Positions 5,738 through 10,937 of a DNA stretch of 33,265 nt are shown in pieces. The DNA is from an uncultured Bacillota bacterium (GTDB taxonomy: Bacteria > Bacillota_I > Bacilli_A > Erysipelotrichales > Erysipelotrichaceae): assembly GCA_949298975.1 (NCBI GenBank), contig CASFYR010000046.1, positions 1-33,265 of the forward strand. Reading direction: 5' to 3'. Position 1 is the stretch's first letter. Every line of letters starts with the position of its first letter. The translations under genes and the position numbers were made by a program. The notes under the pieces are model-generated. The model had not been told where the DNA came from. It saw only the letters and a list, made by a program, of their open reading frames with translations, and did not search any database.

Positions 5738-7483
5738 ATGGTTAATATCAAAGAAGATCAGCATCTTAATACGCTTAATCACTCGTGTGCTCATTTATTG
5801 GCACAGGCTGTATCCCATCTTTATCCGGGCGCTAAATTCTGGGTCGGGCCGGTGATCAGCGACGGCTTTTACTATGATATGGATCTTGGCGATGTCTCGC
5901 TCAAAGAAGAAGATCTGGCGGCAATTGAAAAAGAGATGAAAAAAATTGCCAAAGACGGCAAGAAGATCGTTCGTCATGAACTAAGCAAAGAAGAAGCCTT
6001 GGCGATGTTTAAGGATGATCCTTACAAGATCGATCTGATCAATAACATGGATGAAGCTGATACGGTTATTTCTTGCTATACCCAAGGTGATTTTACCGAT
6101 CTATGCCGGGGCCCGCATGTTGCAAGTGTCAAAGAATTGAAGCATTTTAAACTTTTAAAGGTTTCGGGGGCTTACTATAAAAACGATGCCAAAAACAAAA
6201 TGCTGCAAAGGGTATATGGGGTTTGCTATGACAGCAAGGAAGATCTTGACGCTCATTTGTATATGCTGGAGGAAGCCAAGAAGCGGGATCACCGCAAATT
6301 AGGCAAAGAGCTGGGTCTTTTCATGATCAGTGAATATGCTCCCGGCTGTCCGTTCTTTTTGCCAAACGGGATGATCTTGCGTAATCAGTTAGAGAATTTC
6401 TGGTATGAAGAACATACTAAAGCCGGCTATGTGTTTATCAAATCACCGATCATCATGTCAAGAGAATTATGGGAGACTTCCGGGCACTGGGATCATTACC
6501 GTAACAATATGTATACGACAAAAGTTGACGAACATGATTTCGCCATCAAACCGATGAACTGTCCGGGATCGCTTCTGGTCTATAAGAACGGCCTGCATTC
6601 TTACCGCGATCTGCCGATCAGAATGGGCGAGCTCGGTCTTGTGCACCGCCATGAAGCCAGCGGCGCCTTAAATGGTCTTTTCAGAGTGCGCTCTTTCACG
6701 CAGGATGATGCTCACATTTTTATGCGGGAAGATCAGACGGAAAGCGAAGTCATCCGATTGATTGAATTTATTGACAAGTTCTATAAAGTGTTCGGTTTGA
6801 CCTATGACATCGAGTTATCGACAAGACCAGATGAAGGCTATATCGGATCGATCGACACTTGGGATCGGGCGGAAAAGGCTTTAAGTGACGCTTGTCATCA
6901 TGCCGGCAAGGAATGTAAAGTTAATCCGGGCGATGGGGCTTTCTATGGCCCGAAACTTGATTTCCATGTCCATGACAGCTTAAATCGGGTTTGGCAGTGT
7001 GCCACGATCCAGTTGGATATGAACCTGCCGGAGCGTTTTGATATCAGTTATATTGACGAAAATGGCGAAAAGAAACGGCCGTTAATGCTGCACCGGGTCG
7101 TCTTTGGTTCGATTGAGCGTTTTATTGGGATCATAATCGAACATTTTGGCGGAGCTTTCCCGTTGTGGCTGGCACCAAAACAGGTTGTCATCGTCCCGGT
7201 TCATCATGAAAAGCATCTCGCTTATGCCAAGAAGGTCAAAGCAGCTTTGGAAGCTGTTGGTTTAAGAGCTGAGGTCGATGACCGCAACGAAAAACTCGGC
7301 TACCGGGTAAGGGAAGCACAGACAATGAAGGTTCCATATACTTTGGTCGTCGGCGATGGCGAAGAAGCTGACGGAAGCGTTACTGTCCGCCGTTTGAAAC
7401 ACAAGGAGACTGCGTCGATGTCACTTGACGAATGTATCAAATTATTGGATACTATTAATCGTGATAAGACCTATGAAGAATAA
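5738..7483 (+). CDS. thrS: Threonyl-tRNA synthetase lacking the TGS domain
   Basis: It charges tRNA-Thr in the cytoplasm. The start is ATG 5738 after AAGGAGG; the frame is open upstream only within the T-box leader. Residues 1-160 are the editing domain, with HSCAH (15-19) and CRGPH (Cys123, His127) as its metal or catalytic residues. The catalytic domain has MNCPGS (zinc Cys), motif 2 in HRHEASGALNGLFRVRSFTQDDAHIF (zinc His), and motif 3 in MLHRVVFGSIERFIGIIIEH (zinc His). The anticodon-binding domain starts at KQVVIVPV. At 581 residues it is about 60 shorter than the E. coli enzyme: the N-terminal TGS domain is missing, and the protein begins almost at the editing domain. The next gene overlaps its last 11 bases. 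Confidence 0.97.
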   Translation: MVNIKEDQHLNTLNHSCAHLLAQAVSHLYPGAKFWVGPVISDGFYYDMDLGDVSLKEEDLAAIEKEMKKIAKDGKKIVRHELSKEEALAMFKDDPYKIDLINNMDEADTVISCYTQGDFTDLCRGPHVASVKELKHFKLLKVSGAYYKNDAKNKMLQRVYGVCYDSKEDLDAHLYMLEEAKKRDHRKLGKELGLFMISEYAPGCPFFLPNGMILRNQLENFWYEEHTKAGYVFIKSPIIMSRELWETSGHWDHYRNNMYTTKVDEHDFAIKPMNCPGSLLVYKNGLHSYRDLPIRMGELGLVHRHEASGALNGLFRVRSFTQDDAHIFMREDQTESEVIRLIEFIDKFYKVFGLTYDIELSTRPDEGYIGSIDTWDRAEKALSDACHHAGKECKVNPGDGAFYGPKLDFHVHDSLNRVWQCATIQLDMNLPERFDISYIDENGEKKRPLMLHRVVFGSIERFIGIIIEHFGGAFPLWLAPKQVVIVPVHHEKHLAYAKKVKAALEAVGLRAEVDDRNEKLGYRVREAQTMKVPYTLVVGDGEEADGSVTVRRLKHKETASMSLDECIKLLDTINRDKTYEE

Positions 7484-8429
7484 GAATCTATTACGGATCA
7501 TTGTAGCTTTATTTCTGATACTGATTATTGCTTGCGGTATCCTGTTTATTATCTATCTTAATAAGCAAAATGCCGTGAATGATAAAACTGCCCCGACATC
7601 CATGACGATCGTCTCGACCAAAGGGGTTGATTCTTTGGTTATTGCCTCGGTTGCCGACGATCGTTCCATCGATCTCAATTATGCCATAGTCGATAAAGAT
7701 CAGATCAAGAATGAGTTTATGAGCGCTAATAAAGATATGATTATTGCTCCGATCAATCTGGGGATGACAGCGATTAATGAGGGGGCACCATATCAGTTAT
7801 TGGCCATTACCTCAAGAGCTGACACTAAGATCATCAGCAACAATACAGCATATAATGCAAAGATCGCTTATTATGATGAAGAGGGGATCAATGATCTGGT
7901 TTTTGATTCACTTTTAGATAACATTCCGGAAATCCGGACGATTGTGGAATGCGCTTCTTATGAAGCGGTGATCGATGCTTTTGTCAATAAAGAAGTGGCG
8001 ATGGCTATTTTGCCCGAACCATACCTGACCGCGGCAATCAGCCGTTATGAAAGTGAATATGATAAAAAACCAAGCACAATTTACGAATTGCGCAATCTGT
8101 ATTCAGGAGCGGTAGGAGAAAATGATTATCCTACCGGTGCGATTTTTGTCAAGAAATCGACAATGACCGATCGGACCAATGAAGTTATTGAGATCGTCAA
8201 TACCATGCGAACCAATATGGCAACCTGGAAAAGTAATCCGACCACGATTGAAACTAAGGCTGAAAAACTGTCATTTGACCTTTTTGGTTTCAATGATACA
8301 AAGATTTTGTCTGACGGCATCAATAATATGAATAATGAAATCATTTATGCCAGTAACTGTCGCGACCAGATAATTGCATTGTTGAATTACCTTCAGATAC
8401 CATATAAGGATAGTGATATTGTAAGTTAA
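7473..8429 (+). CDS. Orphan ABC-type solute-binding protein, membrane-anchored
   Basis: This 318-residue protein begins with lysines and a long hydrophobic segment (about residues 8-28), then an exported domain. The order of motifs (DMIIAPINLGMTAINEGAPYQLLAI, KIAYYDEEGINDLVFDSLLDNI, VNKEVAMAILPEPYLTAA) matches the SsuA/THI5/NMT1 type of periplasmic-binding protein that binds small organic or sulfonate-like ligands. A lipobox-like IIAC is present, but hydrophobic residues continue after the Cys, so it may be a lipoprotein or a signal-anchored protein. The start is ATG 7473, overlapping the thrS stop; the ribosome binding site is weak, so coupling to thrS is likely. No ABC permease or ATPase gene is nearby. 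The ligand is unknown. Confidence 0.75.
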   Translation: MKNKNLLRIIVALFLILIIACGILFIIYLNKQNAVNDKTAPTSMTIVSTKGVDSLVIASVADDRSIDLNYAIVDKDQIKNEFMSANKDMIIAPINLGMTAINEGAPYQLLAITSRADTKIISNNTAYNAKIAYYDEEGINDLVFDSLLDNIPEIRTIVECASYEAVIDAFVNKEVAMAILPEPYLTAAISRYESEYDKKPSTIYELRNLYSGAVGENDYPTGAIFVKKSTMTDRTNEVIEIVNTMRTNMATWKSNPTTIETKAEKLSFDLFGFNDTKILSDGINNMNNEIIYASNCRDQIIALLNYLQIPYKDSDIVS

Positions 8430-8434
8430 ATTAT

Positions 8435-8463
8435 GATCCGGCTTTACCCGGGTCTTTTCTTTC
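8435..8463 (+). terminator. Rho-independent terminator after the thrS operon
   Basis: A 7-bp stem GATCCGG/CCGGGTC (8435-8441 and 8448-8454) with a CTTTAC loop is followed by TTTTCTTTC, five bases after the stop codon. Confidence 0.8.
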
Positions 8464-8469
8464 TAAAAT

Positions 8470-8546
8470 GTTAGAAATGACTAACTTATTATTGACATCC
8501 ATCGGTCTGCTACTTATAATATGAAGTGTTAGATGAAACTAACACT
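8470..8546 (+). promoter_or_regulatory. feo promoter flanked by two matching inverted-repeat operators
   Basis: A consensus promoter, TTGACA (8492-8497) and TATAAT (8515-8520) with 17-base spacing, lies between two copies of GTTAG-N6-CTAAC: one at 8470-8485 upstream of the -35, the other at 8528-8543 just past the transcript start, extended to 8-bp arms AGTGTTAG/CTAACACT (8525-8546). Half-sites of TTAG/CTAA type are known for DtxR/IdeR-family iron regulators, so iron-dependent repression by such a protein encoded elsewhere is likely. It does not resemble a Fur box. Confidence 0.8.
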
Positions 8547-8566
8547 CTTGGGCCAAGGAGGAATCT

Positions 8567-8779
8567 ATGATTTTAGCTGAAGGAACTTTAGGATCTGAAT
8601 ATATTATCAAAGGGATAGCGGTAGATGACGAAGAGTTAAAATCTTTTTTATTTACTTTGGGATGTTACAGCGGCGAAAAGATTGTAATCGTTTCCCGATT
8701 GAAAAAAAGTCTGGTCGTTTCGATAAAGGATGCCCGTTATAACATTGATAACGAACTTGCCAAATGTATCCGGATTTAA
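8567..8779 (+). CDS. feoA: FeoA, ferrous iron transport accessory protein
   Basis: This is a 70-residue SH3-like FeoA protein, a cytoplasmic partner that is thought to modulate the FeoB iron channel. The layout is typical: an early GSEYIIKGIAVDDEELKSFLFTLGCYSGEKIVIVSRLKKSLVVSIKDARYNIDNELAKCIRI, with the family's L-x-x-L-G-x-x-x-G-x-x-I/V pattern and the final strand that includes the LA-x-x-I-x-I end. A strong ribosome binding site (AAGGAGG) precedes ATG 8567. It is the first gene of the feo operon; feoB starts 26 bases after it. Confidence 0.93.
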   Translation: MILAEGTLGSEYIIKGIAVDDEELKSFLFTLGCYSGEKIVIVSRLKKSLVVSIKDARYNIDNELAKCIRI

Positions 8780-8805: not shown

Positions 8806-10800
8806 ATGAGAATTGCTTTAGCAGGAAATCCAAACAGCGGCAAAACAACATTGTATAATGCCTTGACTGGAAAAAACGAAAGAGTCGGCAACTGGGCCGG
8901 GGTAACCGTTGCCCGCAAGGAAAGTCGCATTAAAAATACTTATCAGACAAGCGAAGAGGAATTGATTTTAGTTGATTTGCCCGGTGCCTATTCAATGTCG
9001 CCTTTTACATCAGAAGAAAGCATTACCAGCAGTTATGTAAAAAATGAAAATCCTGATGTAATCATTAACATTGTTGACGGGACAAATTTGAGCCGTAGTT
9101 TGTTCTTTACTACTCAGCTGCTGGAACTGGGGATCCCGTTGGTGATTGCTTTAAACAAAGTAGATATCAACGAAAAGAAAAACACATTGATTGATACAGC
9201 AGAACTGGCCAACAAACTTAATTGTCCGGTGGTTGAAACAATTGCCATCAGTCATGAAGACAACGGTCTAAAAGAACTGATCGAAGTGGTAATAAATCTT
9301 AAAGGCAAGAAACAAATCGCTCCCTACCTGCAGGAAAGTATCAATCTGCATGATAAAGAAGAGGTTGAAAAGGCCGACCGCCGGCGTTTCGCTTTTGTCG
9401 GTAAGGTGGTCGATGAAGTAGAGTCCCGCAAAATCAAGACCAGCGAGTTTAACCGACAGGACCGAGTTGATGCCTTCCTTACCAACAAATGGATCGGTAT
9501 CCCGTTTTTTGCCTTGGTCATGTGGTTAGTCTTCGATATTTCACAATCAAGTCTGGGTCCGTGGCTGGCGGAGATTTTAGCCGGCTGGATTGGTGAATTT
9601 AAGAATTTTGTCGCCACGATGACGGAAGGTTCATCACCGTTTGTGCAGGCGTTATTGGTTGATGGTATAATAGAAGGCGTGGGAGCTGTCCTTGGTTTCT
9701 TGCCGTTAGTTATGGTTATGTATTTTTTGATCGCTCTTTTAGAGGATTGCGGCTATATGGCGCGGGTCAGTGTTATTATGGATCCGATCTTCAAGCGGGT
9801 TGGACTGTCGGGCAAATCGATCATTCCGATGATCATTGGTACCGGCTGTGCGATTCCGGGAATTATGGCTTGCCGCACTATTCGTAATGAAAGAGAAAGA
9901 CAAACAACCGCAATGCTGACACCGTTTATGCCTTGTGGTGCTAAACTGCCGGTTATTGCATTATTCGCCGGAGTATTCTTCGCTAATGCATCATGGGTCG
10001 GGACGCTGATGTATTTTGTTGGAATTGCTTTCATTTTTCTGGGAGCATATCTGGTTTTAAAGATTACCGGCCAAAAGTATCGTAAATCTTTCTTTATCAT
10101 GGAACTGCCGGAATATAAGATTCCTAGCCTGAAATTAGCGATCGTCTCGATGTTTTCACGAGCTAAAGCCTATATTATCAAAGCCGGAACAATCATTCTG
10201 GTCTGTAATGCGGCAGTTCATATCATGCAGACCTTCAATTGGAATTTGCAAGTGGTGGAAGAGGGCATGGAGAATACTTCAATTTTAGCCAGCGTAGCTA
10301 CCCCGTTTGCAATTGTCTTGATTCCGTTGGGTTTTGGGGTCTGGCAATTAGCTGCTGCTGCCGTGACCGGTTTTATTGCTAAGGAAAATGTGGTCGGTAC
10401 ACTGGCGGTAGTTTATGGTTTGACTAATTTTATTGACACCGACGCTTTGGAACTGATCGGCGGGGCAAATGAAGTAGCGGCTACCTTTGGTCTTAGTTCT
10501 GCTGCTGCTTTGGCTTATCTGATGTTTAACCTGTTTACTCCGCCGTGCTTTGCGGCTATAGGTGCTATGAATTCGGAGATGCGTGATAAGAAATGGTTGC
10601 TTGGCGGTGTTTGTCTGCAGTTCGCTACCGGATATTCGATCGCTTTCCTTGTTTATCAGATCGGCACACTGATTACTACAGGCAGCTTCGGTGATGGCTT
10701 CCTGGCAGGTCTTGTGGTCTTGGTGGTATTTGCTTTGATTATTGGCTTGTTAATCAATAAGGCGAATAAAAAAATCGATAAGGAGTATGCATTAAATTGA
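8806..10800 (+). CDS. feoB: FeoB, ferrous iron transporter
   Basis: This is the membrane GTPase-coupled Fe(II) importer. The start is ATG 8806 after AGGAAAGGGG; an earlier in-frame ATG at 8764 lies inside feoA. The G domain has GNPNSGKT (7-14), Thr34 (G2), DLPG (57-60) and NKVD (117-120). The membrane part carries the paired gate regions, including EDCGYMARVSVIMD and GTGCAIPGIMACRTIRNERERQTTAMLTPFMPCGAKLPVIALFAG with the conserved Cys residues, and LFTPPCFAAIGAMNSE in the second gate. At 664 residues it is normal. Its stop overlaps the TTG start of a small Cys-rich protein. Expression is presumably iron-repressed through the two operators upstream of feoA. Confidence 0.97.
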   Translation: MRIALAGNPNSGKTTLYNALTGKNERVGNWAGVTVARKESRIKNTYQTSEEELILVDLPGAYSMSPFTSEESITSSYVKNENPDVIINIVDGTNLSRSLFFTTQLLELGIPLVIALNKVDINEKKNTLIDTAELANKLNCPVVETIAISHEDNGLKELIEVVINLKGKKQIAPYLQESINLHDKEEVEKADRRRFAFVGKVVDEVESRKIKTSEFNRQDRVDAFLTNKWIGIPFFALVMWLVFDISQSSLGPWLAEILAGWIGEFKNFVATMTEGSSPFVQALLVDGIIEGVGAVLGFLPLVMVMYFLIALLEDCGYMARVSVIMDPIFKRVGLSGKSIIPMIIGTGCAIPGIMACRTIRNERERQTTAMLTPFMPCGAKLPVIALFAGVFFANASWVGTLMYFVGIAFIFLGAYLVLKITGQKYRKSFFIMELPEYKIPSLKLAIVSMFSRAKAYIIKAGTIILVCNAAVHIMQTFNWNLQVVEEGMENTSILASVATPFAIVLIPLGFGVWQLAAAAVTGFIAKENVVGTLAVVYGLTNFIDTDALELIGGANEVAATFGLSSAAALAYLMFNLFTPPCFAAIGAMNSEMRDKKWLLGGVCLQFATGYSIAFLVYQIGTLITTGSFGDGFLAGLVVLVVFALIIGLLINKANKKIDKEYALN

Positions 10801-10937
10801 CAATTCAGGATATTTTGGTAATCGCGATCTGTGCTTTTGCAGTAATTGGAGCTTTGAGCTATCTTTATAAAAAGAAGAAAAAAGGGTGTAATTGCGTTGG
10901 CTGTCCGTATAGCGGCGATTGCCATAAACATCATTAA
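10797..10937 (+). CDS. FeoB-associated small Cys-rich membrane protein
   Basis: This 46-residue protein has one membrane helix (ILVIAICAFAVIGALSYLY), a basic KKKKK stretch, and a Cys/His-rich tail: C-N-C-V-G-C-P-Y-S-G-D-C-H-K-H-H. This is the layout of the FeoB-associated Cys-rich family (often placed as FeoC-like in Firmicutes). The tail could bind Fe(II) or sense redox state, which is inferred. The start appears to be TTG 10797, overlapping the feoB stop by four bases (TTGA), with AGGAG 11 bases upstream; the only nearby ATG (10787) leads to a stop after two codons. A terminator follows. Confidence 0.85.
   Translation: MTIQDILVIAICAFAVIGALSYLYKKKKKGCNCVGCPYSGDCHKHH

Follow-up and report, generated by a model that had tools for sequence, protein, structure and literature searches.

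Analysis of a 33,265-nucleotide stretch of Erysipelotrichaceae DNA, referred to here as the window, revealed two exact copies of the dyad GTTAG-N6-CTAAC on either side of the feo promoter, and we consider it probable (about 0.75) that these dyads are operators of a short DtxR-family metalloregulator lacking the SH3-like domain, whose Fe2+-loaded dimer would repress feo together with a wider regulon. When Fe2+ is plentiful, a metal-loaded DtxR dimer would bind each GTTAG-N6-CTAAC, one dimer per site, and the bound dimers would block RNA polymerase, the one on operator 2 lying over the start point and the one on operator 1 against the -35 side. At low iron DtxR would be released, and feoA-feoB and the small FeoB-associated gene would be transcribed. 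The genes nrdI and dps, a CydD-like ABC gene and an LCM-type methyltransferase gene would belong to the same regulon, and it is possible that two sites give feo a steep iron response.

Organisation of the feo locus

The feo operon of the window consists of feoA (8567..8779, + strand, 70 aa; PF04023, E 7.7e-10), feoB (8806..10800, + strand, 664 aa; PF02421, E 1.7e-54, and PF07664, E 6.9e-12) and a gene with a TTG start for a Cys-rich FeoB-associated small protein of 46 aa (10797..10937, + strand; PF12669, E 1.9e-9). The sequence AAGGAGG (8555..8561, + strand) is the likely feoA ribosome-binding site. The gene 5' of feo (7425..8429) encodes a protein of 334 aa with a signal-like start, for which no Pfam or NCBIfam match was obtained, and its end is followed by an intrinsic-terminator-like hairpin (8435..8454, + strand) with 7 pairs, a loop of 6 and a T-rich tail, one such hairpin being found versus 0.1 in shuffles.

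The sequence-only reading had described two copies of the same dyad with centres 58 bases apart around an ideal promoter, the downstream copy having the longer arms, and this description was borne out in all its parts. Operator 1, GTTAGAAATGACTAAC (8470..8485), is an exact GTTAG-N6-CTAAC dyad whose end is separated from the -35 hexamer by 6 bases. The promoter (8492..8520, + strand), located between both operators, matches the consensus at 12/12 positions, with TTGACA at 8492-8497 and TATAAT at 8515-8520, 17 nt apart; promoter-like sites numbered three versus 1.1 in shuffles. Operator 2, AGTGTTAG-ATGAAA-CTAACACT (8525..8546), has 8-bp arms around N6, and its core GTTAGATGAAACTAAC (8528-8543) is again an exact GTTAG-N6-CTAAC. 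The dyad centres, at 8477.5 and 8535.5, are therefore 58 bp apart. Since the core of operator 2 starts 7 bases past the -10 hexamer, this dyad is predicted to cover the transcription start.

Frequency and genomic distribution of the dyad

No dinucleotide shuffle out of 100 reached the two exact copies of the window. Seven exact GTTAG-N6-CTAAC are present in the whole genome (1,301,400 bases in 89 contigs). The half-site frequency in 68 kb of its own DNA, taken around sites and partly overlapping, would predict 0.24 copies. Variation of the spacer from 0 to 20 gave 14 matches in the same genome, seven of them at spacer 6 and seven over the 20 other spacers. The reversed pattern GATTG-N6-CAATC gave five exact matches, and the exact sites summed over 40 relatives exceeded those of the reversed pattern by 212 to 134, several genomes having more of the reversed one; raw counts thus exceed the reversed control only modestly. 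The reversed word is useless as a raw-count control because the word itself is commoner (52 matches over spacers 0-20, five of them at spacer 6, versus 14 for the motif). With at most one mismatch the reversed pattern gave 50 matches in the genome versus 14 for the motif, and with at most two mismatches the window showed no excess of the motif (10 found, 8.15 expected); neither the relaxed scans nor the reversed-word control are informative. The case for a signal therefore rests on the pile-up at spacer 6 (7/14 versus 5/52) and on the location of the sites, not on the raw count. Chance dyads were ruled out by the shuffles, the spacer control, the half-site expectation and the pile-up of spacers at feo loci described below.

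Six of the seven exact sites lie shortly 5' of gene starts, namely those of feoA (two sites), nrdI (contig C7; TIGR00333, E 1e-25), a Dps/ferritin-like gene (C18; PF00210, E 1.5e-19), an LCM-type methyltransferase gene (C18) and a CydD-like ABC gene (C51), the last having two one-mismatch sites alongside and a contig end inside the gene. A genome-wide search, which the sequence-only reading had proposed as a check, thus returned further copies at iron-linked genes. The dps and nrdI sites were found by eye to stand 8-10 bases past a -10-like hexamer, resembling feo operator 2. At the Dps/ferritin gene (L002, 1060-1516) the operator right behind the -10-like hexamer occupies the place of an element for iron repression, which is unexpected for a storage protein. 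The seventh exact site, inside an LTA-synthase-like ORF (C62), was taken as probable chance, and the other five one-mismatch sites are found near the start of a phosphate propanoyltransferase gene (L009) and, in four cases, within ORFs (L008, L010, L013 and L014).

A second, distant FeoB is encoded by the same genome (C7:31314-33311; 38% identity to the window FeoB) and has no exact site. Among the best 80 of 577 FeoB loci, those closest to the window FeoB (77-80%) come from MAGs, several of which are named Erysipelotrichaceae, while in the congeners the same operators accompany a feoA-feoA-feoB of a different type. This points to a possible replacement of the feo operon, operators included.

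Conservation, dtxR linkage and operator register

Conservation was analysed in the 700 bases 5' of feoB in the best 80 of 577 FeoB loci from named genomes. In this set GTTAG-Nk-CTAAC was present 79 times at k=6, seven times at k=10 and once at k=14, and was absent at the remaining 18 spacers between 0 and 20. The N10 matches are located in L072, L083, L095, L104, L108 (two) and L115, and some of them are overlapping sites 4 bp apart, such as GTTAGTTAATGCTAACTAAC in L108. When the five of the 80 loci that were too short were left out, 75 with at least 500 bases 5' of feoB remained; the exact site was found in 50 of these, TTAG-N6-CTAA in 70 and the reversed motif in none, and the five loci without TTAG-N6-CTAA (L061, L072, L078, L082 and L095) carry one-mismatch sites. 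Outside the core letters, which are fixed by the search, 128 feo sites showed G at the outer position in 79%, and T in 46% or C in 38% at the inner position.

In the window and its four nearest relatives (L047-L050) both sites flank the promoter at a distance of 58-59 bp and the position of the promoter is conserved, the upstream site, in the place of operator 1, having one mismatch in L047 and L048. Other feo loci among the best 80 of 577 carry eight pairs at 34 bp, and pairs at 20-27 bp when one mismatch is allowed. The 34-bp pairs belong to L079, L081, L096, L098, L102, L116 and L120, from MAGs mostly named Clostridia or Oscillospiraceae, and L081 has three sites in a row.

Analysis of the best 30 FeoB loci of relatives, which include the own genome and come from genomes most of which have further FeoB matches, indicated that 28 show the FeoB start, with exact sites in 24 and relaxed sites in 27. 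All eight congeners carry an exact site at feoA and an exact site at feoB, and further exact sites were found at nrdI (G002 and G004) and at an ABC gene resembling the one on C51 (G001, and G002 by the look of the start only). Twelve FeoB loci from the same class outside the order had no exact site and a single relaxed match at -1017, one of these loci having 537 bases upstream; in the same 12 genomes Fe_dep_repr_C gave no match in six, a match in a longer frame (154-226 aa) in four, and a short DtxR beside feo in two (G058 and G059). FeoB and DtxR are both present in G016, with no TTAG-N6-CTAA at the FeoB examined, and G021 (68% complete) has two sites and no DtxR match.

The DtxR gene itself is part of 16 of the best 80 of 577 feo loci, being divergent just 5' of feo in 12 and downstream in four. 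Nine of 30 DtxR loci of relatives include the FeoB start, seven in divergent orientation and two co-oriented with a gap that lacks a site; in L153, where dtxR and feo run in the same direction, two exact sites lie 5' of dtxR. TTAG-N6-CTAA is present in 19/19 divergent dtxR-feo gaps, any other spacer being found in 0-3 of the 19. In the order of G058, FeoB was found in 18 of 30 DtxR loci, every one divergent; GTTAG-type dyads occurred 17 times at N6 and never at other spacers from 0 to 15 in these 30 loci, and GTTAA-type dyads seven times at N6 and 0-2 times at other spacers. The 12 DtxR loci of that order without a feoB start are L240, L241, L243, L245, L247-L249, L251-L253, L255 and L261, and four of them (L241, L247, L251 and L255) have Ala at the position of IdeR Thr40. 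In the window genome dtxR is apart from feo, and no TTAG-N6-CTAA was found in the own dtxR loci (L015/L137).

The 6-base spacer had been considered not to be that of a textbook box, an opinion that comparison with IdeR did not uphold. On the 19-bp box TTAGGTTAGSCTAACCTAA a single IdeR dimer makes contact with repeats 1 and 3, and an apparent KD of 78 nM is reported for one IdeR dimer on a half site (PMC8464063). By letter count TTAGGTTAGSCTAACCTAA contains two overlapping TTAG-N6-CTAA, repeats 1 and 3 spelling TTAG-N6-CTAA, so that spacer 6 is the single-dimer register within the textbook box, and the window sites conform to this half-site register. The full four-repeat 19-bp arrangement (two TTAG-N6-CTAA 5 bp apart) was found 5' of feoB in none of the best 80 of 577 loci, even when one mismatch was tolerated. 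This set contains two mismatch-bearing pairs at a distance of 4 bp, and each of the window sites is a lone dyad. G/C at the outer position and pyrimidine/purine at the inner edge are new with respect to the IdeR box.

Thr40 of IdeR contacts the cytosine at position 2 (PMC8464063), and the contacted base is the one that is changed between GTTAG and GTTAA operators. The residue at this position was compared with the operator in 36 loci, 18 of which had been preselected for a divergent arrangement and a site already known in the gap, L116 being dropped. Seven divergent dtxR-feo loci have Ala there, with GTTAA-N6-TTAAC in six of the seven gaps and TTAG-N6-CTAA in none, while those with Ser or Thr have TTAG-N6-CTAA in 29/29 gaps and GTTAA-N6-TTAAC in none. 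The Ala proteins with GTTAA-N6-TTAAC at divergent feo in 6/7 (L233-L239) form a sister DtxR clade. In the DtxR tree constructed with the recognition helix masked, the Ala/GTTAA switch is one change, and it therefore represents one natural experiment, with no statistic and no independent replicate; a Fisher value for the association was set aside on this account. The residue at the Thr40 position is associated with the operator letter, in keeping with the Thr40-cytosine contact.

The candidate regulator and alternative explanations

The sequence-only reading depended on a DtxR-family protein being present, and a single gene of this family was identified in the own genome (contig C30, 127 aa; Fe_dep_repr_C, E 1.6e-13). 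Both domains of the DtxR/IdeR/MntR superfamily were found, PF01325 with 38.8 bits (cut-off 26) and PF02742 with 49.9 bits (cut-off 27); both end by residue 119 of the 127 aa, and the C-terminal SH3-like domain is absent. The best PDB and NCBIfam matches are MntR, under the NCBIfam cut-offs. The metal-site residues are N9, C99, E102, H103 and H77, of which Cys99, Glu102, His103 and His77 are invariant in 45/45 aligned DtxR proteins, the own protein included, while the first ligand varies, with Met in 21, Asn in 12 (including the own protein) and Asp in 12. In 30 DtxR proteins from the order of G058 the Cys is present in 30/30, and 28 have Asp and two have Asn as first ligand. The primary site of IdeR is formed by Met10, Cys102, Glu105 and His106, and Fe2+ selectivity is raised by Met10 and Cys102, MntR having Asp/Asn and Glu at these positions (PMC10317159); MntR of B. 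subtilis (1on1) and of E. coli (2h09) both have Glu where the own DtxR has Cys. With Asn as first ligand and Cys at the selectivity position, the ligand set of the own DtxR is thus a mix of the iron and manganese types. Its Ser36-x-Pro38-Thr39 equals Ser37-x-Pro39-Thr40 of IdeR, matched by the shared motif (numbering of PMC8464063), and E. coli MntR also carries the Ser-x-Pro-Thr motif.

The suggestion of a DtxR/IdeR-type repressor is strengthened by the copies at iron genes, the DtxR gene and the TTAG-N6-CTAA register; the parts of that reading to be corrected are the reservation about the spacer and the DNA loop. The location of the own dtxR, apart from feo and without a site, counts against an iron-responsive DtxR as the binder, as does the dps site, seemingly placed for repression at high iron, which is odd for a storage protein. 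The MntR matches, the own Asn first ligand, the Fur-family gene of the own genome, G021, G016, the second FeoB with no exact site and the modest excess of the raw counts also weigh against it; the Asp first ligand in 28/30 proteins of the order of G058 lowers our confidence in iron as the signal.

The same DtxR could respond mainly to Mn2+ in the manner of MntR, with feo, nrdI and dps under manganese or dual-metal control. NrdI belongs to class Ib ribonucleotide reductase, an enzyme that can use manganese, and this is in keeping with such a response, together with the short SH3-less build, the Asn first ligand of the own DtxR and the Asp of the G058 order, and MntR as the best database match. 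A regulator that answers to both Mn and Fe is known in T. denticola TroR (PMC2628430). We nevertheless regard a mainly manganese response as unlikely, since Cys and not Glu occupies the selectivity position in 45/45 and 30/30 proteins, the regulon is headed by ferrous-iron transporters, and no known Mn transporter was found among the genes that come first after the six sites of the own genome. Binding of the dyads by a Fur-family protein, either Fur or PerR, would agree with the one Fur-family gene of the own genome, whose best PDB match is Fur (9ire), with PerR (2fe3) next. A peroxiredoxin-like gene (by eye) comes after this Fur-family gene, whose NCBIfam matches are all under the cut-offs. 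The dyad motif is, however, unlike the Fur box, and no GATAAT-N0-8-ATTATC was found in the 1100 bases 5' of the window feoB. Fur is described as serving iron control in low-GC Gram-positives (PMC10317159). Of 40 relatives, 13, including seven of the eight congeners, gave no Fur-family match, and 11 of these relatives (81-100% complete, congeners included) all keep DtxR and at least two exact sites. These 11 are the 13 minus G021, on account of its completeness, and G024, which is probably unreadable: it showed neither sites nor control matches, and every protein and family search, that for FeoB among them, ended without a candidate. DtxR and exact sites are present in 8/8 congeners. Fur or PerR as the binder, largely refuted by the relatives without a Fur match and the missing GATAAT-type box, is in our estimate extremely improbable, and elimination of the Fur family in relatives that keep the sites makes DtxR the candidate binder.

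Operator 2, expected to be transcribed, could form a stem of 5-8 bp with a 6-base loop, and the dyads could on this account be RNA hairpins of the leader. Operator 1, however, lies upstream of the promoter and outside the feo leader, letters beyond the search core are conserved as well (the outer G mentioned above), and no Rfam family matched in 8300-8700, on which an RNA element was rejected as scarcely credible. The loop raised by the sequence-only reading, in which dimers on sites 1 and 2 would touch and bend the promoter DNA between them, is an addition to the DtxR reading and not another binder. It agrees with the 58-59 bp spacing kept by the pairs of the window and its four nearest relatives, but 58 bp corresponds to about 5.5 turns, which puts the sites on opposite DNA faces; the distance is the one that the enclosed promoter needs, and the pairs of other feo loci stand at 34 bp or, with one mismatch, at 20-27 bp. 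Such a loop is not favoured and appears very unlikely, and as the main purpose of the two sites it was rejected on geometry.

Fur has feo among its targets in Clostridioides difficile, and SirR of Staphylococcus epidermidis is kin to DtxR. SirR, by the title of its report an iron-dependent repressor in a low-GC Gram-positive, is a possible precedent for a DtxR relative that answers to iron in Bacillota, and C. difficile shares with the present case iron control in an anaerobic member of the Bacillota (PMC6311696), exerted there by Fur, whereas here the operator is of the DtxR type and relatives occur without a Fur match. The TTAG/CTAA core, the 6-base register of one dimer on TTAGGTTAGSCTAACCTAA, the Cys, Glu and His of the primary site, the Ser-x-Pro-Thr recognition helix and, as we infer, the control of iron genes are common to the present system and to IdeR/DtxR with the actinobacterial 19-bp iron box; differences are the lack of the SH3-like domain, the own Asn for Met at the first ligand, the occurrence in Bacillota, and dyads that stand singly, have G/C at the outer position (GTTAG...CTAAC) and mostly carry Y/R at the inner edge, where the box has G/C. 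The best sequence match is MntR (B. subtilis and E. coli), that of B. subtilis also having the short two-domain build, but MntR has Glu where Cys is found here, and the genes behind the present sites are linked to iron. One dimer on half a box is likewise found at IdeR half sites, for instance C23S1 of Saccharopolyspora erythraea (PMC8464063), but they are an exception beside full boxes, while single dyads are usual here.

In low-GC Gram-positives, iron control is described as mostly the task of Fur, with DtxR proteins confined to manganese (PMC10317159), and SH3-less DtxR members reported so far are described as not Fe2+-responsive in vivo (PMC7762939). A looser statement places DtxR proteins in the iron control of many Gram-positives (PMC7576875), and feoAB of lactic acid bacteria has been assigned to PerR (PMC3616900). 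Neither a description of GTTAG-N6-CTAAC nor one of a DtxR-feo regulon for Clostridia or Erysipelotrichales was found in the open-licence PMC literature; within this literature, DtxR-type control of iron genes is known, and the SH3-less protein, the single-dimer operators and the occurrence in Bacillota, some of them with no Fur match, would be new.

FeoA has an SH3-like fold, and a weak match (E 0.0049) was obtained between FeoA and the C-terminal part of a long MntR model. A broader proposal, which we hold to be improbable, would have the SH3-less DtxR lineage with the Cys ligand as the main iron sensor in much of the anaerobic gut Bacillota, in the place of Fur, with one dimer per operator, a change from GTTAG to GTTAA by one helix change, and free-standing FeoA as a detached regulatory SH3 domain that couples the state of the transporter to transcription.

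If the dyads are operators of an iron-responsive DtxR, a short iron-type DtxR with an iron regulon in Bacillota that lack a Fur match would break the rules given in PMC10317159 and PMC7762939, and the simple motif would allow iron regulons of gut commensals to be predicted. The Ala/GTTAA clade would provide a natural helix-operator switch for testing how the DtxR family reads DNA.
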